Positions 20,501 to 60,213 of a stretch of 64,000 nt of DNA are shown in pieces. Below the pieces are notes generated by a model. The model was not told the origin of the DNA. It did no database searches and saw only the letters and a list, made by a program, of their open reading frames with translations. How positions within the stretch are numbered: the first letter of the stretch is position 1; every line of letters starts with the position of its first letter. The position numbers and the translations under genes were made by a program. Origin of the DNA: a virus; IMG/VR virus record IMGVR_UViG_3300042308_000865, positions 1 through 64,000 of that record, one strand, 5' to 3'.

Positions 20501-23500
20501 ACTAGTGTTTGGATTTAAAATTGCATCTCTTCCAATCTCTGAAAATACTGAAGTTATTCCGGGTAAAGACTGATAATTTTTACCGCCGGACAATAAATCA
20601 ATTTCACTAATTGCACCAATTGCTGTTTTAGAGTCTGTAAAATATTCAAAAAGTCCATCAGAACTTGTGTAGGATGTTTTTTCTGGATAATCAATTATAT
20701 TGAATGTGAAAGTCGTTTGTCCAACTCCAACTACATTATGAAAACCAGAGTATGAACTTCTTGTTAGTTTTAATGTGTTATTAGAATCTACATTCTCATC
20801 GTCTATTATAATTTCCTTTTTAACCGTTGAGTTGTTGAACAAATCAACAGGAACCAAACGATAGTACAAATCTGTCTCTACGCCAGAAGTAGTTAATTTG
20901 ACAGAAGAAGTAGAATCAATACCAATTTTTCCTGTTTTTATTACACTAAAATTAGAAGATCCTTCAATTTTATCAAAAACCTTAGTAAAATTAGAATTAG
21001 AATAGATTACAAAATCAAATGCTGAATATAAATTAGCATTCTTTGTAAAGGAAAGTGATCTATCTGATAGATCAAAATTTATTGTTTGATTGGGAATAAT
21101 AGGAATACTAGGATTGACTAATGAAATAGATCCTTCAGAAGTACTCGTAAAGTCTATAATTTCTGGAACTTCTTTAGTCGCATTGTAATAACTTGAAGAT
21201 AATCTAATGTAATCTTTATTATATCTCACAATATAATAAATTTTATCATTTTCCAAACCTCCAATTGAAGTTGTCGCATTATAAACTACTTTTTGTCCTG
21301 TAGTATACTCATGATTTTCAATGTATATCTTATTGTCTGATAAATTTACTGCAGATGCAGTGAAAGATCTTGGGTTAACAAGAAGTCTTTTGTTTTCATC
21401 ATTATATTTAATTACTACATTGGTGGTAATTCCTGGAAGAGAATCAATAAAAATACTATCTCCTCTTTCTAATCCATGAGTTGAAGCCGCGGCAACAGTA
21501 ACTGTGTTTCTTAAAACTTCTCCAGTTAGAACATTGGAGTAATTTGTCTTAAAACTGTGATTAACACCAGATCCTACATTTGTAAAATAAACTGTTGATG
21601 TTAAGATACTGCTGTTTATTCCTACAAATGATCCTGTTGATCCCAATCCAACTTTATTTGTAGAAATACCGATTAAATCATCAGATACTTTTGCAACATA
21701 AATTACTTGATTATCAAGTAATTGGAAACTTGAAGCGCCATCATCAGAAACAAAGAATGGAGATCCTCCATTACTAGAGTAAATTAACTCATCTCCAGTG
21801 TTTAATGAATGTGATTGTAGATATATTGTTTTAGTCGGAACAAAAATATTAGTGATTCCAGCACCTGGATTTGAAAAATATAAAGTTGATCCGATTCCCA
21901 CTCCAGAAGTCGTACCAAGACTGAGTGACTCTGTTGGATTAAAATATAGTTCTCTATTAAAATTAAAGTTAAAATTGCTGTTATTATTTCTAAATCCTAT
22001 GGTAAATTTTCTTGTTTGTTCATATAAAACCGTAGATGCTGTATGAGAAACTCCTACAGTTGAATCATATCCTCTTAAAACCTTAATTCTAGAGGAAAGT
22101 TCATCTACAGAAAGAACTTTAACCTTTTCATTTTCAACTTTATAAACGTCATTTTCTCTAATATATGAGAAGTCTAAAGATCCATTTATATCAAAATAAG
22201 TGACAATTCCGGTAGATGTAGAATTTCCTACTGCTTTTGATAGAACTAAAGTGTGAGTATTAACTCCAACTACAAAAAACGAATTAAAAATCTTAACAGA
22301 AGTGCTTAAACCAGATATTGAAACAATATCATTGCTTATAAAACTATGTGGTAATGAAGAAAATCCTACAAGTTTATTTCCATTATTATATGGATAAAAT
22401 TCAACTCCTTGAGTGTAGGTAGAAGCAAAACTAATTGATTTTATTTCTTTTCCTTTTACAAACGATACTTGACCGTAAGCATTGAACCCGCCAGAATTAG
22501 TATTATTAAAATTGATAGTATCTCCTACTTTATATCCAGAACCTCCAGTAACAACTCCAACATTAGATAGTTGTCCAACAGAAGTTGATCTTACAGTAAC
22601 TACTGGTTTTCTAACTTTTAATGGATCAAATACGAAATCATATCCAGAGTTATTGCTTTTTAGATTGTATGGTTTAGTGTTCCTCCAAATTCCAGATTCT
22701 GTATAATTAAAATTATTTTGGTTTATGTTTCTATCATAATTTACATCAATTGGAGTAGATTTAAAAGTATTACCAACTATGTAAGGGAAAACTGGTTTTT
22801 TGTAATTCCTGAAGACACCGGCAGTTTCTGTTAATCCATTATTAATTGTAGTAAAATATGCATAAGTTCCGTTTGGATACTCTGGTGTTACACAAAATCT
22901 TCCATTATGCTCATCTAAATCTCCACTTGCATTATATTGATAATCTTCAACAAAAAATCCTTCTGGATATATTCTTTGTCCTGTAGTAGAAATTGGATCT
23001 GGTCTATCACTAGAAGGCAATGAAATATATCCAGATGTAAGTTCTCTTACAGATCCTCCTGTTTTTTCGCTATAACCATATGGTCCGTAAATTGGATTTC
23101 CATCGTATGCCCATCCAATTATAGGTGAGTGTGTGGTAGAAACTACCTCTCTATTGTTTACTAATTTTAAATCTGGTACATAAACTTTGTTCCCATTTAC
23201 ATAATCAATACCAAATACACTTCTTCTTAACTTTCTTGGTGCATATAAATGACAATATTGTGAACCACTTACAGTATATGAAGAGACCTCAACTACACCA
23301 TCATCATCCACAATTTGTTCATCATTTAAATATCTTTCTACAGTGTTAATAGTCCAAGATTTTATTTTTACTTCGTGTGAGAATCCATTTCCAGAAGGAA
23401 CTATATTTAAGAAAGTTCCCGTAGTATTAAATCCGACTCCGCCATTAACAACCTTTACTTCAACAATTTTACCAGAATTTACAATAGGAGTTAAAACTGC

Positions 23501-26500
23501 ACCGGTTCCTATTCCCAAAACTTCAATTTTTGGTGCGGAAGTATAATTATTACCACTATTGAGAACTATAACTTCTGTTATTCTTCCTCCATTAAGTACG
23601 GGTGAAAGTTGAGCTCCTGATCCAATACCCAAAGTAATTTTTGGTTGTCTTTCGTAATTAATGATTTCAGAAGACCCATATCCAACACCAGAATCTTTAA
23701 TAAAGATGTTGCTAATTTCTCCTTTAAAACTTGGTTGTAGTTTAGCACTAAAATCTTGTCCAGTTAGTGTAGATACACCAATTTTTCCAGATACACTTAC
23801 AACTATGTTGGGGTAGTTAAATGTATGGTATGAAGATCCTACCGAAGTCAGATTTATAAACTGTTTGGTTTTAAAATAAAAATCTTTATTTGTAGTAGCA
23901 ATTCCAACTTGAGATAATTTGAATTCATCTTTATTTACTGCGGTAATATAATATGATTGATTATTTGATAATCCGCCAACTGCAGAACCTGTCGAATTAT
24001 ATACAACAATTTCTCCAGTTTTATAACCATGATCAATTATTTTAATAGTATTTGATGAAGTGTGAATTCCGGAGATGGCGCAAGAAATTTTTTTATTAGT
24101 ATATCCAGAACCTAAATTCAATACACTAACATTTGATATTTTTCTCTTTGATAGTGTGGATTCTATTAGATGAATTCCAACACCATAAGAAGTTAAATCT
24201 ACTGTGTTTATACCAGAAACAGCATCATCTAAAGTTTTATGCAACCTAACATTATATGCATCTTGAACAGAAACATGATACTGTGCATTTGTTGATAATC
24301 CGCCAACTCCAGTTTGTCCCTCAGTTAGATATGTAACTCTTTCATAATCTCTAAATTTATGATAAGATGAAAAACCAATTGTATTAGTAGTTAGATTAAC
24401 AAATCCAGAACTTTGAATTGAATTGAATGATACACTATGCCTAAATGAAGTCATATTAGGTTTAGCATATGCTCCATATCCATTTCCACCTGTTATGGTT
24501 ATAATTGGATCTTCAAGATAATCAAATCCACCATCTATTACATCTATTTTTTCTAATTTTCCAACAACGTGAGCAAAAGCAGATGCACCATAACCAACAC
24601 TATCTTCTACCAATACAGTAGGTGTGTTAATTACATCATAATTTTCTCCGCCACCAATGACGTTTATGGATTGAATTCCACCATAAAAAACTTTATCTGT
24701 AGATTTATAACTATAAGCTTCTACACCATTCACAAATATTCCAACTGGACCTGTTGGAGTCTCTGATACTACATCTGCAGAAACAGGTTTTGATATTTTT
24801 TTTATATAACCTTGCTGCGATAGTGGTGATATATTAAATTTTAATCTTTTAAAAATATTATTTTTTGCAGTTCCAGATACAGTTACAAATTTATTTTTAT
24901 ATAAATCCGTTTTACTGCTTGCAATTTTTATTGTAGTATTATCTACTCTTTTTACAAAATAAGTTTTTTCAGAAATATTCAAGTATTCATCTGGATTAAA
25001 AGCATTTCTACTGTAAACAATAGCATCACCAGTGATAAATCCATGTAAATTGGTTGGATTTCCAGAACTTAAATCTAAAGTTTCTCCATTAAAAATTCCA
25101 GAGAAAATAACATTAGTATTCTTTGTATTTACATCTTCGTCCAAATAATTTGGCAATGAATTGGATGTGACATATATTTCGTCTTCATTGTTTAAATAGA
25201 CATTTTGAATATTAGCAGAGTATGAATTGACATCTGTGTAATTGGTGAATTTTGGTTTTTTCAAAATCCTCTCAATTACATACTTCAGGGTAAGATTATT
25301 AATCTTTACTCCTTCTACTACAATCGAATATTCATTATTAACACTTACAACTTTATAATTATCTTTATCGCCATTTGGATTTATTAATCTTAAATTATCG
25401 CCAAGTGAAAATGAATGTGGATCGTAAGTACTTACTTCGTAAGTAAAAACATTTGTTATTAGATTAGAAGAATTAGGTCCACTAATAGTTTTGACGTTAT
25501 ACTTTGTAGCAAGATTAAAAATCCAATTATTTGCTAATATACCTTTTGGATTGTATCCTAAAGAAACCGCACTCAGTGAGTCGCCTTTTTTCATTAATGT
25601 GTTTCTTGAGTCATAATCGACTTCAGATAGAACACCAGTTATTCTAACCTTTACAGTTGAAACACCAACATTAGCATAAGCATACTGATTTAATTTTAGA
25701 TCAGTTCCTGTTGGAATAGAAATAGAAGGTGATGATGTAATGTAAAATTGAGTAGTATTTTTGTTGAAATATGAAATAGTATAATCAATTCCATTTACAT
25801 TAAAATCTAATTGTCCATTTGAGGGAAATCCAATAGTAGAATCAGCATCAATAACAGTGCTACTAGTAGATACTCCTGCAATTACTTTCGTAGACGGATG
25901 TATTGAAAAGTTTCCGTAAATAGATCCACTAACAGTAAGATCTTTATTATAATCATAGTCAAGACTTAAGACATAAAAGGTTCTTCCGGATCTTTGAATT
26001 TTCTCAACTTTAGTAACAGATCCATAAGCCTTATTATAGCCTCCAACTTGGTCTTGATATAAAGTCCTATTCTCAAGATCCATTGGATCTCCAGAAATAG
26101 ACTCAACAACCAAATCTCTAACAACTCTATATTGAGCATCAGATGGTTTGAGTAAATAATCTCTTGGCTTAATTACACTTACTTCCTGTCCAAATAATGC
26201 CTTGAAAAGTAATTTGTAGGAATCATCAGTTCCTTTTGATGAATAAAAACTCTTTGCATTTTTAATAAAATTTCTTTCATCCAGACCTTCTGCAAGCGTT
26301 CTATTTTCAAATCCAGGAACTAATTGTGATTTTATTTTTGTTAAAAATTCTTTTAAGAATAAAGAACTTAAGTTTGCAACAGTTGTTTTTGAGGTATGTT
26401 CTGCAATTTCAGATGTTGAAAATACGAGTTGATCTGGTTGATTACTTGCTCTATAAGAAGTTATACCGCTAAACCCTCTAGTACAATCTTTGAAGGAAGT

Positions 26501-27034
26501 AGAAGTTTTTGATGAATAAAGTATGATTTCCGAATCAATTTGGATAATTCCATTGGTATCGGGAAATCCATATGTAGATGCGACGTTAATTGTAGTGTCT
26601 ACAAATTCAACATCACTTGTCAAAATAGTTGAAGATGGAGATTCTACAACAAACTCTAAAACATCACCGGGAACAGCAGGAGTAACTAGTATTACTGAAG
26701 ATCCATCTGTAGCAAAATAGTCAGTATCTTTCAGTAATTTAGTGCCATTTTTTAAGACAATAAGATCATTTACCGAATAACCACCACTAATTTGAAAGAA
26801 AGTTTGTGGAGATTGTGGTTTTACAGTAATTGTTCTGGCAAATGTTGATTTATAAAGTTCATCAACTTTTAAATATTGATCAATATTTTGAAGAATATCA
26901 AGTGTTGATCCTTGACCTTCTACAGAGTTGTAATACTCCTTAAGGAATTCACTAACAAGAGGATATTCTTCTAGTACAAAATCGGGAAGTTGATTTTGTA
27001 CGATTGAACCAATTTTAATTCTTGTATCTGCCAT
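14540..27034 (-). CDS. Giant 4164-aa baseplate protein at the gp7 position, with YHYH domain
   Basis: A single 12.5-kb reading frame, one of the largest proteins expected in a phage of this kind. Near residues 250-290 is a block (FIKNAKSFYSSKGTDDSYKL, LFKALFGQEV) resembling the C-terminal region of T4 gp7, which contains FYSTKGIEASYKFLFKVLYN. With its place between gp6 and gp8 this suggests a greatly extended gp7 homologue. Residues about 1240-1420 hold a YHYH-type domain (IIGWAYDGNPIYGPYGY, then LDEHNGRFCVTPEYPNGTYA). The remainder is a long array of GSGYTSxP-type 25-35 residue units with IGIGTT linkers, probably beta-structure. It may be a wedge initiator carrying a peripheral adhesin-like body. 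No frame interruption is seen. Confidence 0.82.
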   Translation of the reverse strand: MADTRIKIGSIVQNQLPDFVLEEYPLVSEFLKEYYNSVEGQGSTLDILQNIDQYLKVDELYKSTFARTITVKPQSPQTFFQISGGYSVNDLIVLKNGTKLLKDTDYFATDGSSVILVTPAVPGDVLEFVVESPSSTILTSDVEFVDTTINVASTYGFPDTNGIIQIDSEIILYSSKTSTSFKDCTRGFSGITSYRASNQPDQLVFSTSEIAEHTSKTTVANLSSLFLKEFLTKIKSQLVPGFENRTLAEGLDERNFIKNAKSFYSSKGTDDSYKLLFKALFGQEVSVIKPRDYLLKPSDAQYRVVRDLVVESISGDPMDLENRTLYQDQVGGYNKAYGSVTKVEKIQRSGRTFYVLSLDYDYNKDLTVSGSIYGNFSIHPSTKVIAGVSTSSTVIDADSTIGFPSNGQLDFNVNGIDYTISYFNKNTTQFYITSSPSISIPTGTDLKLNQYAYANVGVSTVKVRITGVLSEVDYDSRNTLMKKGDSLSAVSLGYNPKGILANNWIFNLATKYNVKTISGPNSSNLITNVFTYEVSTYDPHSFSLGDNLRLINPNGDKDNYKVVSVNNEYSIVVEGVKINNLTLKYVIERILKKPKFTNYTDVNSYSANIQNVYLNNEDEIYVTSNSLPNYLDEDVNTKNTNVIFSGIFNGETLDLSSGNPTNLHGFITGDAIVYSRNAFNPDEYLNISEKTYFVKRVDNTTIKIASSKTDLYKNKFVTVSGTAKNNIFKRLKFNISPLSQQGYIKKISKPVSADVVSETPTGPVGIFVNGVEAYSYKSTDKVFYGGIQSINVIGGGENYDVINTPTVLVEDSVGYGASAFAHVVGKLEKIDVIDGGFDYLEDPIITITGGNGYGAYAKPNMTSFRHSVSFNSIQSSGFVNLTTNTIGFSSYHKFRDYERVTYLTEGQTGVGGLSTNAQYHVSVQDAYNVRLHKTLDDAVSGINTVDLTSYGVGIHLIESTLSKRKISNVSVLNLGSGYTNKKISCAISGIHTSSNTIKIIDHGYKTGEIVVYNSTGSAVGGLSNNQSYYITAVNKDEFKLSQVGIATTNKDFYFKTKQFINLTSVGSSYHTFNYPNIVVSVSGKIGVSTLTGQDFSAKLQPSFKGEISNIFIKDSGVGYGSSEIINYERQPKITLGIGSGAQLSPVLNGGRITEVIVLNSGNNYTSAPKIEVLGIGTGAVLTPIVNSGKIVEVKVVNGGVGFNTTGTFLNIVPSGNGFSHEVKIKSWTINTVERYLNDEQIVDDDGVVEVSSYTVSGSQYCHLYAPRKLRRSVFGIDYVNGNKVYVPDLKLVNNREVVSTTHSPIIGWAYDGNPIYGPYGYSEKTGGSVRELTSGYISLPSSDRPDPISTTGQRIYPEGFFVEDYQYNASGDLDEHNGRFCVTPEYPNGTYAYFTTINNGLTETAGVFRNYKKPVFPYIVGNTFKSTPIDVNYDRNINQNNFNYTESGIWRNTKPYNLKSNNSGYDFVFDPLKVRKPVVTVRSTSVGQLSNVGVVTGGSGYKVGDTINFNNTNSGGFNAYGQVSFVKGKEIKSISFASTYTQGVEFYPYNNGNKLVGFSSLPHSFISNDIVSISGLSTSVKIFNSFFVVGVNTHTLVLSKAVGNSTSTGIVTYFDINGSLDFSYIRENDVYKVENEKVKVLSVDELSSRIKVLRGYDSTVGVSHTASTVLYEQTRKFTIGFRNNNSNFNFNFNRELYFNPTESLSLGTTSGVGIGSTLYFSNPGAGITNIFVPTKTIYLQSHSLNTGDELIYSSNGGSPFFVSDDGASSFQLLDNQVIYVAKVSDDLIGISTNKVGLGSTGSFVGINSSILTSTVYFTNVGSGVNHSFKTNYSNVLTGEVLRNTVTVAAASTHGLERGDSIFIDSLPGITTNVVIKYNDENKRLLVNPRSFTASAVNLSDNKIYIENHEYTTGQKVVYNATTSIGGLENDKIYYIVRYNKDYIRLSSSYYNATKEVPEIIDFTSTSEGSISLVNPSIPIIPNQTINFDLSDRSLSFTKNANLYSAFDFVIYSNSNFTKVFDKIEGSSNFSVIKTGKIGIDSTSSVKLTTSGVETDLYYRLVPVDLFNNSTVKKEIIIDDENVDSNNTLKLTRSSYSGFHNVVGVGQTTFTFNIIDYPEKTSYTSSDGLFEYFTDSKTAIGAISEIDLLSGGKNYQSLPGITSVFSEIGRDAILNPNTSSIGNINRIDIDDIGFDYPSDITLSPSSKLPQVLKVKPLSTFDNIGVSSVGINYTLSPNLVVIDSVTNKVVTDVDLKFNIKTKEVDIIKNTDGINNATPRIVPINNSNGVSIDNVTFNNSTKDVTIELGVNYSFGQTFPFNVGDRVLVENVSVGIATTAKGYNSKNYDYALFTLTSVSPQYGGSGASITYNLSNYLSGSEIPGTFNAENSAGIVVPEKYFPVFNPVLKPGAFIVGEKVTSESYSGTVLEWNSDTEQIKVSSSDSFDQGKFIRGETSNAKGTIGDVQDFNAVYLIGPSAVVNKGWNKETGFLNNALQVTSDNNYYQYFSYSIKSKVDYETWNESIGNLNHTVGFKKFGDLEIESIDASFTGISTAQNEGSFIGISDLIQEIDLNCVNDFDLAREKTIKISDNYISNEIILNTVSLQDEFQSLGNRVLMIDDFSDQFSNVPAENNYANADTFRLSDIRSKKYVTYVRDKRFTGLRQVYLVSLLHDGLEGYLSQYARVETNRDLGSFDFSIFGSEGTLRFYPLNFLVNDYDISVMSYGITDIISGIGSTSLGNIVELKSSTATIPSGTSSQTTIVGIGSTYRASKVLVELSSTNGEYYEFNELTLIHDGNNVSILEYGQLSNESRVRYVGDGIGSYTAYISGSNINLDFTPNVGLGTTYIANTVRVSVASTIGTNTGSLTFNTGQVQSSYVSISSSPTPTQNKISTYSLDHSGAYYFVVVEDKTNNTYQASEITVVDDDTDAYLAEFGIVESSSGLGTMGVGVGATGTSLYFTPNPNINVDVRVYQHAMRVVDVDNSFEFYSLENARIDSKFTGYQGTYNSIKKSFNLYHQQNPIFQRVFNASDSTIVDITKDTIRIPKHYFVTGEELAYSEGDGSPIGIATTTITGIGTTDKLPSSVFVVKVNDLNIKLASSAQNALKTVPEVFSLTSVGIGTTHKLTSLKQNAKSLISIDNLIQTPIVSTSTTTFLSRSSSLNENTITLSGITSIFGGDLLKVDNEIIKVNTVGFGSTNVLLVDRGWMGTDPANHLNGSLITKITGNYNIIDNTIHFVEAPYGNSPIGTITNKPDSRDYTGITTRSTFSGRVFLRSGLENGTLDSYDKNYIFDGLSEQFTGIQTQFKLTSNKSDVSGISTGSIILLINNIFQEPQRLGTISIQGDYKMSDGAGITTLAFTGSISSTSYDVNTASIPRGGVIVSVASSQGFGYQPLVSAGGTSIVSVGGTISSISVGNIGSGYRGQSKYEIITQTSTSISAGSTIIPINNSNGVIQKLSLSSSNTINIGSTFIDVPIVGVGISHVLIGSGNTSSQGITADSTVLISLNSPTIGFVDVGVKTASIGNVNYEFIGFATISSGHVSNNVTITNPGSGYTSSNPPVVVFDSPLSYSNIPLIYAPGYSGIGTAATVNIVVGQASSITDFEIKNLGYAYKVSEVLTVPTGGLTGIPTDPSKPFRNFELSIDQVFSDAFSAWSVGDLQVIDKIENLFNGTRRTFPIKINGTQTSIRARVGSNIDVQATLLVFINDVLQVPGSGYIFKGGSIITFTEAPKEGDSCKIIFYKGTESVDVLFADILETIKIGDDVRLNSDNVLLKEDDRLVTEIVASDTIQTNSYPGPGLTLDEDLSRPLIWCRQTEDKIINGKEIGKDRELYEPLIQPLSNIISNVGIGSTEIFVQSVKIFFDDSRENATIPFKTKILVTSQDTIVGASATAIVSAAGTVSSISLSNSGSGFTTTPSVTISNPIGFGTSVGIGSTALAISSITSGIVTSFTITNPGFGYTSSKPPQVLIEYPALNYEKIEDVTYEGDFGIIVGIKTTTVGVASTGIVFDLFVPTDSYLRNTNINVGIATTGISGIKTDYYFTVFNSNIGFGITSLDSNSSIVGVGTTCLDNVYKVASVSIASTSVPGVGVTNVSRVVVSVLNYNGLTGTGFSNFYGEFSWGRISVPTRKNPTIFTAYTRNGISGLSTSPIVQRLNPLRYVGYSTTLQQ

Positions 27035-52545: not shown

Positions 52546-52604
52546 ATCATACCCCAGATTGGGCGGCGCGGCAAGGGGAGTGTGCCAGTTCTCAAGGTGT
52601 CCCA
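52546..52604 (-). promoter_or_regulatory. Early promoter module M with sigma70-like -35
   Basis: -10 TATGAT at 52546-52551, 17 bp, -35 TTGCCG at 52569-52574. Block at 52581-52604 (forward TGTGCCAG...GTGTCCCA), 29 bp from the -10. Overlaps the end of the upstream coiled-coil gene. Confidence 0.75.
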
Positions 52605-53089
52605 GTGAGTTTTTTAAGTCTTGCTTGATGTGCTGCCTCTTGCGATCTTGCTTCTGCACCTATTTCTTGATGGACGTGTTTAATATGTGCTGATTTTTGT
52701 GCTGCCTGGCGCCTTGCAACTAACTGACTATAAAGATTAGGTTTCATTATTGGAGTTTGCTCCAAATACAACTCTTCTTTCTGTTGATTTTGTCTTTCTA
52801 ATCTTGCTTGTCTTTCCGCTTCTTTTTTTTCTTTTTCTGCCTGCCTCTTTGCTCTTAATTGTTCCTGTCTTTCTTCATAATCTTGTCTCATTTGTGCATA
52901 TTTTTCTTTTTGTGCTTGTATATTTGCTTTCTGTCTTTCTACAAAGTCACTTGCAGAAGTTTTTGATCTTTCAGCAGCAATTCTTCTTCTCTGTGCAAGT
53001 CTTTCTGCTGGAGCATCCTGTTTTGATATGGCATCAAGATTTCTCCTTAATGATTGCATATCTTCATTAAATTGAGTAAAGTTTTTCAT
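52592..53089 (-). CDS. Coiled-coil protein with MKxFxxF N-terminus (candidate internal protein)
   Basis: 165 aa. It begins MKNFTQFNEDMQSLRRNLDA, similar to the capsid-targeting start of the four genes at 57-60 kb, but without a clear [I/L]-x-E at 8-10. The middle (about 45-110) is an Arg/Lys/Glu/Gln-rich coiled coil. An AATAAATA late element lies 19 nt upstream. It may be a scaffold-like, internal head or tail-associated protein. Confidence 0.7.
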   Translation of the reverse strand: MKNFTQFNEDMQSLRRNLDAISKQDAPAERLAQRRRIAAERSKTSASDFVERQKANIQAQKEKYAQMRQDYEERQEQLRAKRQAEKEKKEAERQARLERQNQQKEELYLEQTPIMKPNLYSQLVARRQAAQKSAHIKHVHQEIGAEARSQEAAHQARLKKLTGTP

Positions 53090-53107
53090 TTTTAAACACT
53101 TTTTGAT

Positions 53108-53115
53108 TATTTATT
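53108..53115 (-). promoter_or_regulatory. Late promoter (AATAAATA)
   Basis: A one-mismatch late -10, 19 nt before the 165-aa coiled-coil gene and 19 bp beyond the terminator of the upstream gene. Confidence 0.5.
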
Positions 53116-53133
53116 TTGTAAAAGTGTTTTTCA

Positions 53134-53159
53134 TAAAAAAAGGTGCCTCGGGAGCACCT
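53134..53159 (-). terminator. Rho-independent terminator
   Basis: Minus strand AGGTGC / GCACCT stem with a 7-nt loop followed by seven T. Ends the transcript of the 267-aa gene. Confidence 0.85.
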
Positions 53160-53186
53160 TGAGACGGTTTGGGAAGTGGTCTCAAC

Positions 53187-53987
53187 TCATAAATCATCAC
53201 TTGTATCTTTGACTTCCAATCCTCTCCTTCTTCTTGATTTATTACCAGAACCGTGTGTATCATCACCACCATACCAATCTGATTTTGATTTTCCTTTAAA
53301 CCCAATACCCCCTCTTTTAGTTGGTCCTTTTGTAGTTGTTCTCATAGTTACATCACCACTACGATTTCTTCTTTCTACTGGTTGTCCTTCCTTTCCACTA
53401 GCAACCCTGTTTGCTAAATATCCTCCTTTTTCTAATGCTCTTGTTCTTCTTTCTCCAGTAAGTTCTTCAACAATACTCTCCACCCATTCTTCACTCATAT
53501 TTGATGCAATGACTTCTGCACCTTTAAGATTATTTGTATATCCCTCATTTACAAGATGATAGAGGATGAAATCAAATTCTTCTTTATTGAGTGCTGCTGC
53601 TCTTTTTCTTGCTTTATTACCTCTACCTTGTTCGGGAGCACTCCCTGCAGTATGTGTAGCACCATACTTACTATAACCAGCTTTCAAATAACGATTATGT
53701 GCTTCTCTTGATTTATCTGCAACTTTTTTGGTATATATGGAACCACCATATTTCTCTTCATCTCTTTCTGCTCTTGCACGACTACGATTGAGAATTTGTC
53801 TCTTTGCAGAAGTATCAGATTTTTCTGGTCCAACATTATATCTCTGACGTAGAACTTCACCTCTACTCATTGGTTTTGGTGCTTCTGCTTCTTTCTTTTT
53901 TCTACCAAGAAATCTCTTCAATGAAGAACGGATACCTTCATCAATAGTATGAACTTCTTGGTACGATTGAATGTCTCTAGAATCCAT
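53187..53987 (-). CDS. Basic protein with MSEEW motif (candidate internal/virion protein)
   Basis: 266 aa, start at 53987 (MDSRDIQSYQEVHTIDEGIR), 24 nt after a perfect TATAAATA. Very basic, Arg/Lys/Gly-rich. Residues 15-17 (I-D-E) would suit cleavage by a gp21-type prohead protease. Near 140-178 lies EEFDFILYHLVNEGYTNNLK followed by an AxxIASNMSEEWVESIV helix, shared with the 52-aa protein at 56463. The rest (KGPTKRGGIGFKGKSKSDW) looks disordered and could bind DNA. Inferred to be packaged with DNA; not proven by sequence. Confidence 0.7.
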   Translation of the reverse strand: MDSRDIQSYQEVHTIDEGIRSSLKRFLGRKKKEAEAPKPMSRGEVLRQRYNVGPEKSDTSAKRQILNRSRARAERDEEKYGGSIYTKKVADKSREAHNRYLKAGYSKYGATHTAGSAPEQGRGNKARKRAAALNKEEFDFILYHLVNEGYTNNLKGAEVIASNMSEEWVESIVEELTGERRTRALEKGGYLANRVASGKEGQPVERRNRSGDVTMRTTTKGPTKRGGIGFKGKSKSDWYGGDDTHGSGNKSRRRRGLEVKDTSDDL

Positions 53988-54010
53988 TTGTTTTTTAAGC
54001 ACTATGAGAA

Positions 54011-54018
54011 TATTTATA
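54011..54018 (-). promoter_or_regulatory. Late promoter (TATAAATA)
   Basis: Perfect late -10, 24 nt before the start at 53987. Confidence 0.7.
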
Positions 54019-54019
54019 T

Positions 54020-54262
54020 TTACTCATATTCAAATGGTTTATTCATATGCCTTGGATATTCAATACTACACTTAATATCTTTAGTTTCTGCTGGGATTAT
54101 ATGAGTTCTTACTGCATTAAAGACAATAAAGCAGTTAGTGATGAAAATAGAAAGAAACATAAGAGTGCGGATAATTGCTACTTTATCCGCCTCTTTGTTG
54201 CATTCACTTGCCTTTTCCCCTAAAGAAAGTGCCCAGAGTTTCCAGAGATTACTCCTCTTCAT
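54020..54262 (-). CDS. Small membrane protein (80 aa)
   Basis: Starts MKRSNLWKLWALSLGEKASE. One hydrophobic helix (about 30-49, IRTLMFLSIFITNCFIVFNA). The LWALSLGEKASECNKEADKV segment resembles small cyanophage membrane proteins. Last gene of operon N. Confidence 0.7.
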   Translation of the reverse strand: MKRSNLWKLWALSLGEKASECNKEADKVAIIRTLMFLSIFITNCFIVFNAVRTHIIPAETKDIKCSIEYPRHMNKPFEYE

Positions 54263-54488
54263 AGATTGATTTGCGAGACTTAACGTAGTTTAATTCGCCC
54301 CATTGATTTTTATAACAAATCACAAGTAATCTGTTATTTGCGTGAAATGGAGCGTCTAAAAGATTTATACTATCTTTAGGTTTAACTCTAGTCTCAATAG
54401 TCAGATATTCGGAATCTTTATAATAAACCCACCCTTTGATGTGGGGTTTCCAAATCACAAAATCATTAACTTGAGGGTCATACTTCAT
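54249..54488 (-). CDS. Hypothetical protein (79 aa)
   Basis: Start at 54488 (MKYDPQVNDFVIWKPHIKGW); overlaps both neighbours. Beta-rich, resembling a small SH3-like fold (NDFVIWKP...GWVYYKD...YLTIETRVKPK). Function unknown. Confidence 0.65.
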   Translation of the reverse strand: MKYDPQVNDFVIWKPHIKGWVYYKDSEYLTIETRVKPKDSINLLDAPFHANNRLLVICYKNQWGELNYVKSRKSIYEEE

Positions 54489-54645
54489 ATTCCTTTTCAA
54501 CACACAAAAGAGAAATTAGTGTTTTGAGTTTAGCAATTTCTTCTTCTTGGTCTTTGATTTTATCTTGAAGACGACTGATTTGTGCCTGATATTGAGTTTT
54601 CAAATCAAAGATCATTTTGTTTGTGTGTGCAACGTGATGTGTCAT
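54478..54645 (-). CDS. Small coiled-coil protein (55 aa)
   Basis: Starts MTHHVAHTNKMIFDLKTQYQ, then a leucine-zipper-like helix ISRLQDKIKDQEEEIAKLKT. Function unknown. Confidence 0.65.
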   Translation of the reverse strand: MTHHVAHTNKMIFDLKTQYQAQISRLQDKIKDQEEEIAKLKTLISLLCVEKEYEV

Positions 54646-54647
54646 AA

Positions 54648-54887
54648 TCAGGTGGTAAAGGATTCAACAACAGTGGATTCTACATCTTCGGCAAGAGCAT
54701 AAGTTCTTGCATTAACTACTTTTTCCCGAAGATTTACATAAAACTCTTCATTGAATCCCTCATCATAATCTTTAATCAAATCAAAACATTCATCGTCATC
54801 TTCTGCAATCACGTTCCAAACTCCTCCATATTCTGAACGTGGAAAAGTTACGAAGTGATCTACGATATAAAGAAATTTTTGTGCCAT
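54648..54887 (-). CDS. Small acidic protein (79 aa)
   Basis: Starts MAQKFLYIVDHFVTFPRSEY; alpha/beta with acidic AEDDDECFDLIKDYDEGF. Function unknown. Confidence 0.65.
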   Translation of the reverse strand: MAQKFLYIVDHFVTFPRSEYGGVWNVIAEDDDECFDLIKDYDEGFNEEFYVNLREKVVNARTYALAEDVESTVVESFTT

Positions 54888-54936
54888 TAACCTCGTTTGC
54901 TTAACAAAAATAGTATAAAGTTTCTCTGATAAAAAG

Positions 54937-55101
54937 TCAATTGATTTTATCAGAGGGTATTTTCTTTAGATTCTCTACTGATGTAGAATGATAATAAGCA
55001 TCATACATTCGCTCATCGCGTTGGATTAAAAAGACATTCCAACCAAGAATAAATGCAAAGACAGTCAATCCAGCGATGACATACTTACGATTTCGGTTCA
55101 T
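54937..55101 (-). CDS. Small membrane protein (54 aa)
   Basis: Starts MNRNRKYVIAGLTVFAFILG; one N-terminal hydrophobic helix after a basic start, so a signal anchor. The start overlaps the band-7-like gene (ATGA). Confidence 0.7.
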   Translation of the reverse strand: MNRNRKYVIAGLTVFAFILGWNVFLIQRDERMYDAYYHSTSVENLKKIPSDKIN

Positions 55102-55505
55102 TTGTTCATTTGGAGTGTAGGAACGGGAAGACCACCTTCGGTAGGTACATAAATGGTCACATTACCATTCTTGCTACCATCTTCAATGCCCGTGATATAC
55201 AGATACTGAAGATACTCACGATTATCTTTCAATGAATTACCAATGATTTGGTTTGCCTTGGCAACACCTTGAGCACGGATGATTTCAGCATCAGCAAGTT
55301 GCTGTGCAGAATCTTTCTTTGCTTGTGCTTCCAGAACTGCAACCTGACGAGTATATTCTGCCTTCTGCAGTTCTGCTTTACCAGCAAGAGATTGTTGCCA
55401 TACGTTGTATTGGGGACCACCAATAAAGATGAGACCACCAACGACAACAGCACCAACTGCAATCAGAGCAACAGCAGGATCAATAAATCCATTTTGATTT
55501 TTCAT
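55098..55505 (-). CDS. Membrane-anchored band-7/SPFH-like protein (135 aa)
   Basis: An N-terminal hydrophobic helix (about 10-30, PAVALIAVGAVVVGGLIFIG) is followed by an Ala/Gln/Lys-rich helix (QVAVLEAQAKKDSAQQLADA, then IIRAQGVAKANQII). This is the pattern of the C-terminal coiled coil of prohibitin/SPFH proteins. The SPFH domain itself is missing, so it is a short relative. Such proteins are common in cyanophages and probably sit in the host inner membrane; role unknown. Confidence 0.75.
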   Translation of the reverse strand: MKNQNGFIDPAVALIAVGAVVVGGLIFIGGPQYNVWQQSLAGKAELQKAEYTRQVAVLEAQAKKDSAQQLADAEIIRAQGVAKANQIIGNSLKDNREYLQYLYITGIEDGSKNGNVTIYVPTEGGLPVPTLQMNK

Positions 55506-55693
55506 TTAGAAGATACTCCAGTATTTTTGAAAATAAGATTAGCAAGAAAGATCATAGCAAAAGTTTGCCAGATCGTAAGATTAACACCAAACCAAGATAG
55601 AATCAAACCAAGCAACCACGCTTCAAAAAGAAGTCCCGCAACAACAAGGACAATTACACCAAAAGTAATACCAATAGCAGTAGTAGTTTTCAT
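55502..55693 (-). CDS. Small two-pass membrane protein (63 aa)
   Basis: Starts MKTTTAIGITFGVIVLVVAG; hydrophobic helices at about 6-32 and 42-56. Overlaps the band-7-like gene by 4 bp and may act with it. Confidence 0.75.
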   Translation of the reverse strand: MKTTTAIGITFGVIVLVVAGLLFEAWLLGLILSWFGVNLTIWQTFAMIFLANLIFKNTGVSSK

Positions 55694-55695
55694 AA

Positions 55696-55833
55696 TTAAT
55701 TTTCAAAGTTGTGATAGAGTTTTTCTTCAAGTTTTTTCAACCGCTTTTCATATTCTTTATTCGGTTGATGTAAAGCATAGTTAAACAAGAGAGCAGTTAC
55801 CAACCCTCCGAGATACCATAAAATAAACGTCAT
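55696..55833 (-). CDS. Small membrane/coiled-coil protein (45 aa)
   Basis: Starts MTFILWYLGGLVTALLFNYA (hydrophobic), then a Lys/Glu helix KEYEKRLKKLEEKLY. Linked by ATGA to the upstream gene. Fourth membrane protein in a row. Confidence 0.65.
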   Translation of the reverse strand: MTFILWYLGGLVTALLFNYALHQPNKEYEKRLKKLEEKLYHNFEN

Positions 55834-56006
55834 ACGGGAAGTTCTGCAAGAGACTTTCCCCTTTTATGATCGTTTATATATTTTTTTGCAGATGCTTCAG
55901 TTCTGCATAGTTTTTCAAGTTGTTGTCCGTTATGAATAATAATATATCCCTTTGCACCAAAAGGGATGGCAGCATAAGAACCATCCCCCACAATAAATCC
56001 TTCCAT
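55830..56006 (-). CDS. Small protein (58 aa)
   Basis: Starts MEGFIVGDGSYAAIPFGAKG; beta-rich start then a helix EKLCRTEASAKKYINDHKRG. Resembles other short phage proteins with the pattern GYxIIHxGxxL. Function unknown. Confidence 0.65.
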   Translation of the reverse strand: MEGFIVGDGSYAAIPFGAKGYIIIHNGQQLEKLCRTEASAKKYINDHKRGKSLAELPV

Positions 56007-56224
56007 TAAATACTCTGCAATGTTCCTTCCTTTTTCATTTGAGCAATAAACTTACCCACACTCTCAACAGTTTTGATATGAAGACGAACATAATCTAGGT
56101 CTTCGCAACCAAAAATATAAAAGTGATCTGGTTTATAAGTATATGCTACACCAACTTGACTTTGCTCATCATCAAACTGAATCTTTGCAATAGCAGAAGA
56201 ATCGGTGAACTCAAGGACTTCCAT
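56006..56224 (-). CDS. KTSC-like small protein (72 aa), first gene of operon N
   Basis: Starts MEVLEFTDSSAIAKIQFDDE and ends SVGKFIAQMKKEGTLQSI. The order Ser-Ser-Ile, strand, YTYK, SxGKFIxxxxK resembles the KTSC family of unknown function, though it lacks the usual VP. Starts 23 nt after the -10 of module N. Confidence 0.65.
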   Translation of the reverse strand: MEVLEFTDSSAIAKIQFDDEQSQVGVAYTYKPDHFYIFGCEDLDYVRLHIKTVESVGKFIAQMKKEGTLQSI

Positions 56225-56247
56225 TGATCTCTTTCGATTACCTAGTA

Positions 56248-56306
56248 ATCATAGCACGGGATCGGTGCCCTGGGTGAGGTCAGTGGTCAGTTCGCCAACT
56301 GGTTCT
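56248..56306 (-). promoter_or_regulatory. Early promoter module N (degenerate block)
   Basis: -10 TATGAT at 56248-56253, 29 bp, block at 56283-56306 (CAGTT/AACTG inner arms only; outer arm like module D). Overlaps the stop of the upstream 59-aa gene. Heads a nine-gene operon rich in membrane proteins. Confidence 0.6.
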
Positions 56307-56466
56307 TCAGTGTATTTAAGTGATCTTCACTGCATATTTTTGCAGTAAATCCTGGATAAAACTTATTTACAAGAGTGCTAATACCCATGGCAGTATTAGC
56401 ACTCTCGCATCTTAACCAAATTTCTTTTTCTTGTACTTTTACTATGTGGTCAAAAGGAAATTTCAT
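56287..56466 (-). CDS. Small hypothetical protein (59 aa)
   Basis: Starts MKFPFDHIVKVQEKEIWLRC; its last residues (KNQLAN) are encoded by the block of module N. Two Cys. Coupled to the upstream gene by ATGA at 56463-56466. Confidence 0.6.
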   Translation of the reverse strand: MKFPFDHIVKVQEKEIWLRCESANTAMGISTLVNKFYPGFTAKICSEDHLNTLKNQLAN

Positions 56467-56621
56467 TCTTTAACTATAAATTTGTACCAGGTTTCACTCA
56501 TACCTTCAATAATCTTATCTGCAGATTCTTTATCCTCTGCATAACCTTCTGAAATTAAATGCTCTACAACACTCTCGTAGGTCTTATAAGTTTCCTGCAA
56601 TTCTCTTGGTGTTGGTTTCAT
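56463..56621 (-). CDS. Stand-alone MSEEW-motif protein (52 aa)
   Basis: Starts MKPTPRELQETYKTYESVVE. Residues 19-50 (VVEHLISEGYAEDKESADKI, then IEGMSETWYKFIV) match the motif in the 266-aa basic protein at 53187. A late-like AATAAATA lies 18 nt upstream although it is also inside operon O. Perhaps a small partner or docking unit for virion or internal proteins. Confidence 0.65.
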   Translation of the reverse strand: MKPTPRELQETYKTYESVVEHLISEGYAEDKESADKIIEGMSETWYKFIVKE

Positions 56622-56637
56622 TTGACTACTTTTTCTT

Positions 56638-57045
56638 TTATTTATTCAAAAAACCTCTCATACCAGTAGTAGCAACGAAACTCTCAAGACCTTTGTTAAT
56701 TGGACGCACTTTAATGTAAATCTCATCAGGAACTTCACCAAAGTATCCCTGCAACCAAGGGCACAACCAAACAGGAAGACACATCGTCGTATCAGTATAA
56801 GTCGTGCCTTCTTCATCGGATACTTCTTTCACCAGAAGAGTATCATAATCAGAAGGTTCTTCAAGGAAGAGAGAAATCTCAACTTCATCACCTTCAATCG
56901 GATACTTTCCAGTCTTGAAGTAGCAATGATCATCAATTGCTTCTTCAGTTCCATTCAAAAGAAGTTCTTCAACTGTATCATTATGAGAATGGTCAAAGTG
57001 ATACAAACCATCTTCACGTTTGATTGCTACAACTGTAAGTTCCAT
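56638..57045 (-). CDS. Hypothetical protein (135 aa), first gene of operon O
   Basis: Start at 57045 (MELTVVAIKREDGLYHFDHS), 20 nt after the -10 of module O; a longer frame begins before the promoter. Middle part ISLFLEEPSDYDTLLVKEVS and CLPVWLCPWLQGYFGEVPDE. The opening YHFDHSHNDTVEELLLNGTE is typical of a cyanophage conserved protein of unknown function. Confidence 0.7.
   Translation of the reverse strand: MELTVVAIKREDGLYHFDHSHNDTVEELLLNGTEEAIDDHCYFKTGKYPIEGDEVEISLFLEEPSDYDTLLVKEVSDEEGTTYTDTTMCLPVWLCPWLQGYFGEVPDEIYIKVRPINKGLESFVATTGMRGFLNK
56639..56646 (-). promoter_or_regulatory. Possible late promoter (AATAAATA)
   Basis: A one-mismatch late -10, 18 nt before the 52-aa MSEEW gene; lies in the 3' end of the preceding gene. 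Confidence 0.4.
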
Positions 57046-57065
57046 AAGATTCGTGTGTTTCAAGT

Positions 57066-57124
57066 AGTATAGCACAAAAAAAGACCCCTTGCGGGGTCTC
57101 GGGGACAGTTCAAGGAGTGTCTTT
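57066..57124 (-). promoter_or_regulatory. Early promoter module O (GGGGAC variant)
   Basis: -10 TATACT at 57066-57071, 29 bp, block at 57101-57124 beginning GGGGACAGTT and ending GTGTCTTT. The gap contains an intrinsic terminator (57075-57098), and the block overlaps the stop codon of the upstream late gene. Confidence 0.5.
57075..57098 (-). terminator. Rho-independent terminator
   Basis: Minus strand GACCCC-GCAA-GGGGTC stem-loop followed by seven T. It ends the late transcript of the internal-protein genes before the start point of operon O. Confidence 0.9.
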
Positions 57125-57909
57125 TAGTCTGATTTACCAACCATCAATCCAGTTTTTGTGGACTTTTCAGTGCTCTTTTTGCCGAATGCTTTCTTATAAA
57201 GTTTTGCTCTTTTTGCTTCACCAGTTTTCTTGTCTTCACCAGGCATAACAGCAGTTGGTTTTCCGACAACAGCATCACCTTTTTTTGCTCCTGCTGCTTT
57301 CAAATGCTTTGGAGTATCCTTCACTGCTTGAATAAAGTTTCTACCCCTTTCCATTTGCTGGTGCCTATCACCCTTACCAAGGTTACTATCACGGTGCATA
57401 ATATCTACAGTGTGAACTTCACCTCTTTTATTTGCACCTGCTTTAGTCATATTCTTTTTTAAGTCTTTCACTTTTCTTACACTTTCACTTGAAGGTGTAG
57501 TTTTATGTGCAGTCGTTCTACCCGTTATTCCAGGTCTTCCAATTATAGGTCTTGTTACTGACTTCATCTTTGAAATCAATCTCTCACTTTTTGCTGCTTT
57601 TCTTGGAGAAGAATGAGTGCGGATGAAATGGTCTTGCTCTGTGCTTCCAATATCATCTAACTCATCTTCACTATCATAAGTTGTATAATCCTTATGCTTT
57701 GTTCTCAAGTCTTTAGTGGAATACTTACCAGTTCCTTTAAGACCTGCTTTCTTTGCGATAGAAGCAGTAGTTCTTTCTTGACGAGTCATATCAGCACCAC
57801 GACCACGAGCAAGTGTTACCTTACCTCTGGTTCTTCTACCACTTCTTTCACCACCTGAACTTTCTTCTAGTTCATAACATTCGTAAATAAACTCTTGAAA
57901 GGTTTTCAT
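57124..57909 (-). CDS. Candidate internal head protein with capsid-targeting N-terminus
   Basis: 261 aa, very basic. It begins MKTFQEFIYECYELEESSGG. The first ten residues match the T4 capsid-targeting sequence of internal proteins (MKTYQEFIAE), with I-Y-E at 8-10 where the T4 prohead protease gp21 cleaves after [I/L]-x-E. The mature part is Lys/Arg/Gly/Thr-rich and probably disordered until bound to DNA. It overlaps the GNAT-containing gene by 4 bp. Such proteins enter the prohead, are trimmed and can be injected with DNA. Alternative: a non-injected core protein. Confidence 0.7.
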   Translation of the reverse strand: MKTFQEFIYECYELEESSGGERSGRRTRGKVTLARGRGADMTRQERTTASIAKKAGLKGTGKYSTKDLRTKHKDYTTYDSEDELDDIGSTEQDHFIRTHSSPRKAAKSERLISKMKSVTRPIIGRPGITGRTTAHKTTPSSESVRKVKDLKKNMTKAGANKRGEVHTVDIMHRDSNLGKGDRHQQMERGRNFIQAVKDTPKHLKAAGAKKGDAVVGKPTAVMPGEDKKTGEAKRAKLYKKAFGKKSTEKSTKTGLMVGKSD

Positions 57910-58871
57910 TTTTTCTCCTTGGGGGTACGAATCATTGTATCTGCACCAGCAATTCTATCCGAAGGTGTGCGGTCTCGATAACCTAGATTTCTATACATCT
58001 TATCTAATTTTTCTTTATACCCTGGTTTTGCAACTGGGGTCAAAGAAACATTTTTACCAATATTATCTGCATAGTTATGAAGTCCTTTAAATGTTCTTTT
58101 TGCAATTCCTTTGCCTCTTTGATTCTCTGGAACTTCAATGTTATCTACACGAATATCACCAGAACTTGTAGTATGAACAACATACTTCATTCCTGGTGTT
58201 CTTCCTTTTGTTTTTCTTTGAATCGTTTCTAGAGCATCAGATTTTGGTGCCTTTGCTTCTTCTAGGTCTTCATCGTTATGTACTGGATGAAATTTCTTTC
58301 CAATTTTTGTCGAATACTGCTTACCCCAACTATCTACTTTTCCAAACCCAGACTTCTTATAAATTGATGCTCTTGTATTTTTATCAGGGTTTCTTCTATT
58401 ATCACTTGAGTTCTCTTCTGGTTCATTAGATACCAGATGCCCACTAGGAATTCTATGTTGGACGTGCTTATCCCAAACCCTCTTTGCGTTCCTTGCAGTT
58501 CTTAACTTTTCACCTGGACTCATCTTATCTTGGTCATTAGACTTACTATGTTCCCACCTAACATTATGTTCGGGTTTGTGTCCGTGTGCGGTTCTTGCTT
58601 TTCCACCTAATTTAGCATCATACATATGTTCGTATTCATCATCGGAACTATGCCTTTTAGAATGACCAATAGTATAAGTAACCCCGGAAGGTTTATGGTG
58701 AATAGTTGTAGAACCGCTTCTGTTAGTATTTTGGTCTTTTCCTCTTGGTCGGTCATACTTAACTTCTAGGTCAGGATGCTTTGACCTATCAAATCCGTGC
58801 GAGTCATCATACTGTCTTTTCTTTTCTAGTATGAAATATGCTTCTTCTAGAAACTGTTGAAAAGATTTCAT
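57906..58871 (-). CDS. Candidate internal protein with C-terminal GNAT acetyltransferase domain
   Basis: 321 aa. Begins MKSFQQFLEEAYFILEKKRQ, a capsid-targeting-like start with L-E-E at 8-10. Residues 40-200 are polar and His/Lys/Arg-rich. A second L-E-E (203-205) precedes the C-terminal GNAT domain (about 210-310). Its acetyl-CoA motif A is VPENQRGKGIAKRTF (248-261) and a late MYRNLGY (292-298) matches the family. GNAT enzymes move an acetyl group from acetyl-CoA to an amine. Packaging would deliver the enzyme at infection. The target is unknown. Confidence 0.75.
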   Translation of the reverse strand: MKSFQQFLEEAYFILEKKRQYDDSHGFDRSKHPDLEVKYDRPRGKDQNTNRSGSTTIHHKPSGVTYTIGHSKRHSSDDEYEHMYDAKLGGKARTAHGHKPEHNVRWEHSKSNDQDKMSPGEKLRTARNAKRVWDKHVQHRIPSGHLVSNEPEENSSDNRRNPDKNTRASIYKKSGFGKVDSWGKQYSTKIGKKFHPVHNDEDLEEAKAPKSDALETIQRKTKGRTPGMKYVVHTTSSGDIRVDNIEVPENQRGKGIAKRTFKGLHNYADNIGKNVSLTPVAKPGYKEKLDKMYRNLGYRDRTPSDRIAGADTMIRTPKEKK

Positions 58872-59326
58872 CTTTGTCCGCCACCAGTTGAACGTGCTAT
58901 TTTTGCTCTTCTCAATGCAACCTTTTGTGCTGGTGATGGACCAGCACTAAATGGTCTTACTCTTTCTCCTTCTGGAGTTTTCTCCATTTTTTGCTTTTCT
59001 AGTTTTCCAACACCTCTCAATCTACCAGGTGCTGCTGCTCCAGAACCTCCACCACCTTGTGCGTGTCTAGCAGCACCAGGCATACGAGTAGCATATGGTT
59101 GTGTTTCTCTATCAATCATCCCCTGCTTCATTCTACCAGTTGCTGCTCTAGGTGTTAATGATTTTCTTGTTGATTTCTTAACTTCTAGTCCGCCTCCAGG
59201 TTTTTTCACAACTCTACCTGAAGTTGTGGTTACGTGGAGAGGAGTTTTCGTTTCTCCTTTAAGTTTATCCTCTTTACGCATCTCAACGAGGTATGCTTCT
59301 TCTAGGAACTCTCTAAAAGTTTTCAT
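58868..59326 (-). CDS. Candidate internal protein, basic, disordered
   Basis: 152 aa. Begins MKTFREFLEEAYLVEMRKED, with L-E-E at 8-10 and L-V-E at 13-15, both fitting the prohead protease. The rest is Lys/Arg/Gly/Pro-rich (RHAQGGGGSGAAAPGRLRGV) without a recognisable fold. A GATAAATA late element lies 20 nt upstream. It overlaps the GNAT gene by 4 bp. Confidence 0.7.
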   Translation of the reverse strand: MKTFREFLEEAYLVEMRKEDKLKGETKTPLHVTTTSGRVVKKPGGGLEVKKSTRKSLTPRAATGRMKQGMIDRETQPYATRMPGAARHAQGGGGSGAAAPGRLRGVGKLEKQKMEKTPEGERVRPFSAGPSPAQKVALRRAKIARSTGGGQR

Positions 59327-59345
59327 CTTTTTATAACTTTTCTTT

Positions 59346-59353
59346 TATTTATC
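59346..59353 (-). promoter_or_regulatory. Late promoter (GATAAATA)
   Basis: A one-mismatch late -10, 20 nt before the 152-aa gene. Confidence 0.5.
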
Positions 59354-60182
59354 AATCTTCTCCTCTTCTAGTTTTTCTTCTTGCTTTATTCACAAGAGTA
59401 GTGAAAGCTCTCATAGGAGTGATGGCATTACCAATATCACCTAGTTTTTCACGATTACCTCTTTCAAATGCATGGAACTTACCATGATGAAATCCTGGTT
59501 GTTGTGGTTTGAATTTTGAAACTGGACCTTTATTTGCAACAACTAGGTTTTTGGGGTCATTACCGTGATACTTCTTCTCTTGTGCTTGCTTTTTCTTATG
59601 TCTCAACACATCACCAGGAGACATATCCTTCATTTCTTTGCCAGAAGTTTCTATTTCAGTTGCGTGATGAAGTTCTGCTCCACGTTCTCTTGCTAATCTA
59701 CGTTTACGTTCAACTTTTGCCTTTTCTCTTGGTGTTAGTTGTCCTGTTGCTTGTTTAATTCTTTTTTCTCTTCTTTCCTTCTCATTTTCTCTAGATTGAA
59801 CTGAAGCAATACCATACTTGGGTGCTTCTTTAGTTCCTCTATTTTTAATGAAGGTTCCATCTGGTAGTTTTCCTCCGTGATACTTCATTAACTCATCTTT
59901 AGATGAGAAATGTCTTCCTTCTCTTATTATTGCTGATTCTTCTACAAACTCTTTAAAAGTCTTTTTCTTACGATTACGTGCTGGTTCAGATACTCTAGCA
60001 CTATCCAAATTTCTATTTGCTTCCTTTCTCTTTCTCATCAGTTCTCCCATTAAAGGGAGACTTGGAGCAGCATCGTGTCCAGATCTTACTAATGATTGAG
60101 GAGATTGTGCTGCATTTGCAGCAAATGAAAGTGCTAAAACTGCATTTGCTGCTGTGTCTCTTTTTCTACCCTCAGAAAGCAT
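59352..60182 (-). CDS. HNH-like basic protein with internal capsid-targeting-like motif
   Basis: 276 aa. The N-terminal 70 residues are hydrophobic to basic (TAANAVLALSFAANAAQ). At 74-82 is TFKEFVEES, like the targeting motif of the neighbouring genes but not N-terminal, followed by I-R-E at 86-88. The C-terminal half has an HNH-like order: LHH at 171-173, GNDPKNLVV at 207-215 and FHHGKFH at 231-237. It could be a packaged nuclease. The metal-binding set is inferred by pattern only. GATAAATA lies 24 nt upstream. Confidence 0.65.
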   Translation of the reverse strand: MLSEGRKRDTAANAVLALSFAANAAQSPQSLVRSGHDAAPSLPLMGELMRKRKEANRNLDSARVSEPARNRKKKTFKEFVEESAIIREGRHFSSKDELMKYHGGKLPDGTFIKNRGTKEAPKYGIASVQSRENEKERREKRIKQATGQLTPREKAKVERKRRLARERGAELHHATEIETSGKEMKDMSPGDVLRHKKKQAQEKKYHGNDPKNLVVANKGPVSKFKPQQPGFHHGKFHAFERGNREKLGDIGNAITPMRAFTTLVNKARRKTRRGED

Positions 60183-60205: not shown

Positions 60206-60213
60206 TATTTATC
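60206..60213 (-). promoter_or_regulatory. Late promoter (GATAAATA)
   Basis: A one-mismatch late -10, 24 nt before the 276-aa gene. Confidence 0.5.

Follow-up and report, generated by a model that had tools for sequence, protein, structure and literature searches.

The window analysed here, 64 kb out of a 69,361-base IMG/VR virus record (IMGVR_UViG_3300042308_000865), carries on its minus strand five genes for candidate internal head proteins, which bear a short tag like the capsid-targeting sequence (CTS) of phage T4. The window comes from a T4-like cyanophage, of which it represents a fragment: genes for gp16, gp15, gp14, gp13 and baseplate parts mark it as T4-like, and the closest GenBank relatives of its gp15 are from Synechococcus phages. 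The candidate genes and the late-promoter-like elements before them are as follows.

57124..57909, minus strand: candidate 1, 261 aa; tag MKTFQEFIYE at 57880-57909; a second LEE at residues 14-16
57906..58871, minus strand: candidate 2, 321 aa; tag MKSFQQFLEE at 58842-58871; fusion of two cargo modules
58868..59326, minus strand: candidate 3, 152 aa; tag MKTFREFLEE at 59297-59326
59352..60182, minus strand: candidate 4, 276 aa; leader at residues 1-72, then an internal tag; HNH-like pattern C-terminal
52592..53089, minus strand: candidate 5, 165 aa; start MKNFTQFNED; F4 and F7 present, no cleavage site
59346..59352, minus strand: ATAAATA, preceding 58868-59326
60206..60212, minus strand: ATAAATA, preceding 59352-60182
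53108..53114, minus strand: ATAAATA, preceding 52592-53089

The N-termini of the three overlapping genes (57124-57909, 57906-58871 and 58868-59326) are exactly those that an earlier note on this DNA had singled out, each with [IL]xE at residues 8-10. A degenerate DNA pattern for MK[TS]FxxF[ILF..]xE matched the window three times, as compared with 0.01 matches expected from dinucleotide-preserving shuffles. The DNA segments encoding the three tags differ at synonymous positions, indicating that the conservation acts at the protein level. The targeting residues F/Y4 and F7 are N-terminal in these three proteins and in the 52592 protein, and lie within residues 73-82 of the 59352 protein; the cleavage motif is VEE in 59352 and is missing from 52592. 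The related motifs that had been claimed for the latter two are thus present in part: in 59352 as an internal tag with V, and in 52592 as F4 and F7 without a cleavable tag. The T4 start MKTYQEFIAE, to which the note likened them, holds for IPII and IPIII but not for IPI, which begins MKTFKEFTSTTTPVSTITE.

All five proteins are basic, as had been stated, with isoelectric points (pI) of 9.7-11.0 against mostly 4-6 for the other window proteins. ATAAATA precedes 52592, 58868 and 59352 by 25-30 bases, and 57906 and 57124 are downstream genes of the same run, joined by stop/start overlaps, in agreement with the claim that most have late promoters. Across the whole window, the coding strand has 16 copies of this late-type sequence and the opposite strand has 0, a strong bias that is consistent with late promoters; for S-PM2, the late promoter has been described as NATAAATA (PMC2984593). 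These results suggest that the five proteins are expressed late.

When IMG/VR was searched with the window proteins, 67 loci were retrieved, containing runs of two to six close, often stop/start-overlapping genes that begin MK[TS][FY]xxF[ILV]xE; some of the tags are almost the T4 string, e.g. MKTYQEFISEA. Homologues of candidate 1 carry the tag at the same position (L021-L050), and tagged homologues of candidate 3 occur in many loci, whereas searches of GenBank phage proteins with 58868 and 59352 gave no match. Among 54 proteins chosen by MK[TS][FY] only, with similar bodies removed, F7 was found in 51, I/L/V8 in 44, E10 in 45 and A11 in 29, with scant conservation past residue 12 and unrelated bodies. 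In the T4 tag, residues 4 and 7 are needed for targeting and residues 8 and 10 for processing, and aspartate at position 10 abolishes processing while leaving targeting intact (PMC9026906). The conservation of the tag thus coincides with the targeting (4, 7) and cleavage (8, 10) residues of T4.

The motif was present 46 times in 21 records, with 0 matches for reversed and permuted controls. A narrower motif was found in at least 119 IMG/VR stretches, from contigs not all vetted as T4-like, versus 0 for the permuted control. The fetched IMG/VR stretches hold 61 different bodies behind the tag, including ART-PolyVal (E value 1e-23), PARP-like, SAM lyase (E value 1e-8), DPBB and other domains. 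The tag probably works as an exchangeable cargo label, behind which unrelated bodies are swapped. Examples from other virus contigs, in which it stands on ADP-ribosyltransferase-like or SAM-lyase domains, are listed below.

L113:6037-6813
L130:962-1504
L171:8480-9334

As a side observation, T4 gene 61.1 (NC_000866 18966-19130, minus strand; L085) encodes 54 residues starting MKTFKEFIKED, a full match to the tag; its product is not named among the T4 internal proteins in the literature examined.

A protein that lies beside an active prohead protease is expected to avoid the site of that protease. In 31 non-redundant tagged proteins, [IL]xE past residue 20 was counted 16 times, as compared with 28.6 expected, and 0 of 300 shuffles gave so low a count. 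Conversely, 179 other proteins from these contigs were enriched in [IL]xE (553 counted vs 408 expected), and the control motifs Ex[IL] and [IL]xD were not depleted in the tagged proteins. The cyanophage major capsid proteins carry LTE followed by A near residue 50, resembling the T4 gp23 site. A gp21-type protease gene, which the earlier note proposed to locate, was found in three related longer contigs with homologous cassettes (G001, G003 and G006) and in other tag-bearing contigs.

The virion proteome of cyanophage S-CREM2 comprises 52 proteins (PMC10665884). A profile built from T4 and the IMG/VR relatives, with S-CREM2 left out, replaced a hand-made motif as the sole test of virion content. 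The top five of the 219 S-CREM2 genes by this profile, listed below, are all in the virion proteome (P=6.5e-4).

SAM hydrolase, MKDFDSFLEE
Cytidylyltransferase, MKNFSSFLTE
APH-like kinase, MKRFDAFLTE
gp21
ORF136, MQTFSMFFSE

In addition, ORF13 (MKDLHSFLTE), at profile rank seven, was virion-detected. Over all 52 virion proteins the profile failed to tell these from the rest (Mann-Whitney P=0.31), as would be expected since most virion proteins are shell or tail parts; the claim for S-CREM2 therefore concerns the top scorers only. The S-SCSM1 NMNAT, with the tag MKSFLQFLKE, is also a virion protein. Such cytidylyltransferases fall into cluster T4-GC190, which the S-SM1 virion was found to contain (PMC3037559) and whose P-SSM2 and S-SM2 members bear the tag. 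With a strict tag over three phages, four of six tagged proteins were virion-detected (P=0.014).

Three further features within the window proteins bear on what the tag carries.

58257..58265, minus strand: predicted second protease site, LEE at residues 203-205 of the 57906 protein, followed by AKAPK
57909..58256, minus strand: GNAT acetyltransferase-like domain, residues 206-321 of the 57906 protein; sub-gathering Pfam score and fold match
59937..59966, minus strand: internal tag KKTFKEFVEE, residues 73-82 of the 59352 protein; V in place of I/L

For the 57906 protein, other contigs encode each of its modules as a separate protein with a tag of its own, the first in L006-L008 and the GNAT module elsewhere. 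At the joint, LEE is followed by AKAPK, and in the stand-alone GNAT proteins the tag ends with these same three residues, LEE; a second cut at the joint is predicted to free 116 residues. The C-terminus has a GNAT Pfam score under the cut-off (E value 0.0035; 7e-5 for the best relative), and the acetyl-CoA loop QxxGxGxA is present as QRGKGIA. The best Foldseek matches are nearly all GNATs (E value 2e-3), obtained with a low-confidence model (pLDDT, the per-residue model confidence, about 60-85 here). These results suggest that the C-terminus is GNAT-like. The matches include the anti-CRISPR acetyltransferase AcrVA5, which would be a lead rather than a function. An S-CRM01 acetyltransferase homologue begins MKTFDEFLTE, and near-identical GNAT bodies stand behind differing tags (FREFLEE, FKQFLEE, FRKFLEE and FQEFLLE).

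For the 59352 protein, K74, T75, F76, F79 and E82 are invariant in 11 relatives, and two relatives (L010 and L032) begin directly at the tag. The conserved 72-residue leader is joined in frame, at the tag, to several unrelated bodies. The body of the 59352 family has invariant HH, N, H and H, and Pfam HNH_2 matched weakly in 2 of 11 members (E value 0.036). The body gave no meaningful PDB match, its structure model is of low confidence, and identification as an HNH endonuclease was not adopted, the profile and the structure prediction being too weak for that claim. Separately, the Cas9-like virion protein of S-CREM2 (OR473000 7704-10313, minus strand; L092) has a tag-like LRFASFMAEA at residues 17-26; its annotated start may be too early, or it may have an internal tag like that of 59352.

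For the 52592 protein, relatives start MKTF[TQ]QF[NSC]ED (L018, L027, L052 and L056). The whole sequence has no [ILV]xE site, so that its start is not a cleavable tag. This lack, together with D10 and given the T4 mutant data, predicts that the protein would be targeted to the head but remain uncleaved.

Taken together, the match to the T4 targeting and processing residues, the depletion of [IL]xE, the retrieval of virion proteins by the profile and the gp21 genes in related contigs support a reading in which the tagged proteins are packaged. We consider it highly probable that the window encodes a late-expressed cassette of CTS-bearing internal head proteins that would be cut, retained with the DNA and injected. 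By every feature that can be tested in the sequence, the window proteins would belong with the T4-type CTS internal proteins; packaging of all five is very likely, and cleavage and injection would follow by inference. The head-packaged set with T4-like tags that the earlier note had predicted is thus supported, in cleavable form for three of the proteins and probably for 59352, and not for 52592.

In the proposed mechanism, F4 and F7 would dock the tag to the prohead core. After closure of the shell, a gp21-type protease would cut behind [I/L/V]xE at position 10, and the leader peptide would exit. The basic body would remain with the DNA and enter the host before phage gene expression, and recombination would swap bodies behind the tag. 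The cargo here would include a GNAT acetyltransferase-like domain, freed from the two-module fusion by the second cut at 203-205, and an HNH-like body. T4 IPI blocks a restriction enzyme (PMC3012670), IPIII is required on one E. coli strain and acts in the cytoplasm even when the tag is lacking (PMC9391042), and RNA polymerase is modified by Alt (PMC9958956). By analogy with these activities, counter-defence or host modification is a natural guess for the window cargo, which may neutralise first-line host defence or modify host proteins.

Several points weigh against this reading. Cleavage after residue 10 is a step that we infer, and the only pointer to it, the [IL]xE depletion, is indirect; fold class or composition could partly explain that depletion, although the undepleted control motifs make either unlikely as the whole cause. 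No gp21-type protease gene was found in the 69-kb record, which is a fragment. The virion evidence is from other phages. As a second virion test, S-SZBM1 gave no support. Three tagged proteins, namely gp192 of S-SZBM1 and the phrog_1742 members of that phage and of S-SCSM1, were undetected in the two virion proteomes. Such proteins are either degraded core proteins, or the tag is insufficient, or the depth was too low. The phrog_1742 family consists of proteins of about 105 aa with MK[ST]FKxFxSESVNI, encoded close to terminase genes (L079:8583-8891, L087, L088, L089 and L219:2716-3036).

The undetected phrog_1742 proteins fit the strongest alternative, in which the tag is a mark of assembly proteins of the prohead core, comparable to T4 gp67 and gp68, that are degraded by the protease and mostly leave the head instead of being injected. 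T4 core proteins are degraded and then exit (PMC9026906), and the tagged phrog_1742 genes lie between gp16 and gp17 in several genomes. However, protease sites are scarcer than expected in the mature parts of the tagged proteins, whereas core proteins that are to be degraded would need such sites; the bodies are highly variable with enzymes among them, and tagged enzymes occur in finished virions. We therefore regard this alternative as improbable.

A second possibility is that the common N-terminus serves translation start or regulation, or directs the proteins to some other place, these being ordinary late accessory proteins that stay out of the head throughout. Their basic, DNA-binding-like character would fit, as would the fact that the virion detections concern other proteins and none of these five. 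Against this, residues are kept while codons vary, the conserved positions are precisely those used for targeting and cleavage in T4, the tag predicts S-CREM2 virion content, and protease sites are depleted; this account is quite improbable. Descent from a single duplicated gene that had no role in targeting, as might be supposed for three neighbouring tags since adjacent paralogue-like genes often arise by duplication, has a negligible probability given the unrelated bodies, and a chance origin is ruled out by the shuffled, reversed and permuted controls (0 to 0.01).

Elsewhere in the window, the product of 53187-54002 was tried as a further candidate, being basic with a late promoter and IDE at residues 20-22, and was excluded because it lacks the F4/F7 tag. 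The proteins of 53187-54002 and 56463-56621 (minus strand) have HLxxEGYxxxxxxAxxIxxxMSExW in common. In addition, a single 4164-codon open reading frame (14540-27034, minus strand) lies amid the baseplate genes.

Beyond the internal-protein cassette of this phage, a wider proposal can be put forward tentatively, and we hold it to be somewhat doubtful: in T4-like phages that infect cyanobacteria and other aquatic hosts, one ten-residue tag may serve to deliver effectors and enzymes (GNAT, ADP-ribosyltransferase, SAM lyase, NMNAT and kinase) from a repertoire that is open-ended and recombines, some of them made as polyproteins split in the prohead at [IL]xE joints, with an acetyltransferase so delivered here. 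Cyanophage virion proteomes list enzymes without explaining their entry, and a short tag that predicts these enzymes from sequence would supply an explanation. It would also make it possible to compile candidate injected effectors for any T4-like genome or metagenome contig, would provide cases from nature of enzymes carried by the T4 tag, so far mainly engineered, and would make counter-defence in aquatic hosts directly testable.

The paper on S-CREM2 makes no mention of targeting or N-termini, and no literature on these N-terminal strings or on injected acetyltransferases was found in open-licence papers, most subscription journals being outside the coverage. The virion enzymes of S-CREM2, S-SCSM1, S-SZBM1 and S-SM1 (SAM hydrolase, kinase and NMNAT/cytidylyltransferase), several with the same tag and detected in virions by mass spectrometry, have bodies unrelated to the window proteins. 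An N-terminal signal likewise sends DarB of phage P1 (PMC9024508) into the head for delivery; however, its first 30 residues were used, P1 is not T4-like, and the likeness is one of description. T4 Alt is a head-carried ADP-ribosyltransferase that is gp21-trimmed and injected, and some of the tagged IMG/VR proteins are ADP-ribosyltransferase-like, whereas the window cargo is GNAT-like and HNH-like.

The closest comparison is with T4 IPI, IPII and IPIII (CTS; Mullaney and Black 1996, per PMC9026906), which share the ten-residue N-terminal tag with F/Y4, F7, I/L8 and E10, the basic bodies, the late expression and the diversity of bodies behind a conserved tag; the start of IPI, MKTFKEF, resembles the cyanophage tags. 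The cyanophage type differs in its cassettes of up to six genes, in its many more body types including enzyme-like domains, in the fusion with an internal [IL]xE joint, in the leader form with an internal tag, in the D10 form without a cleavage site, and in its cyanobacterial host. Overall, the mechanism is a known one; what appears to be new is how large and widespread the cargo set is, together with the two-module fusion that keeps a conserved site at its joint, the form with a leader and the form that lacks a cleavable tag.
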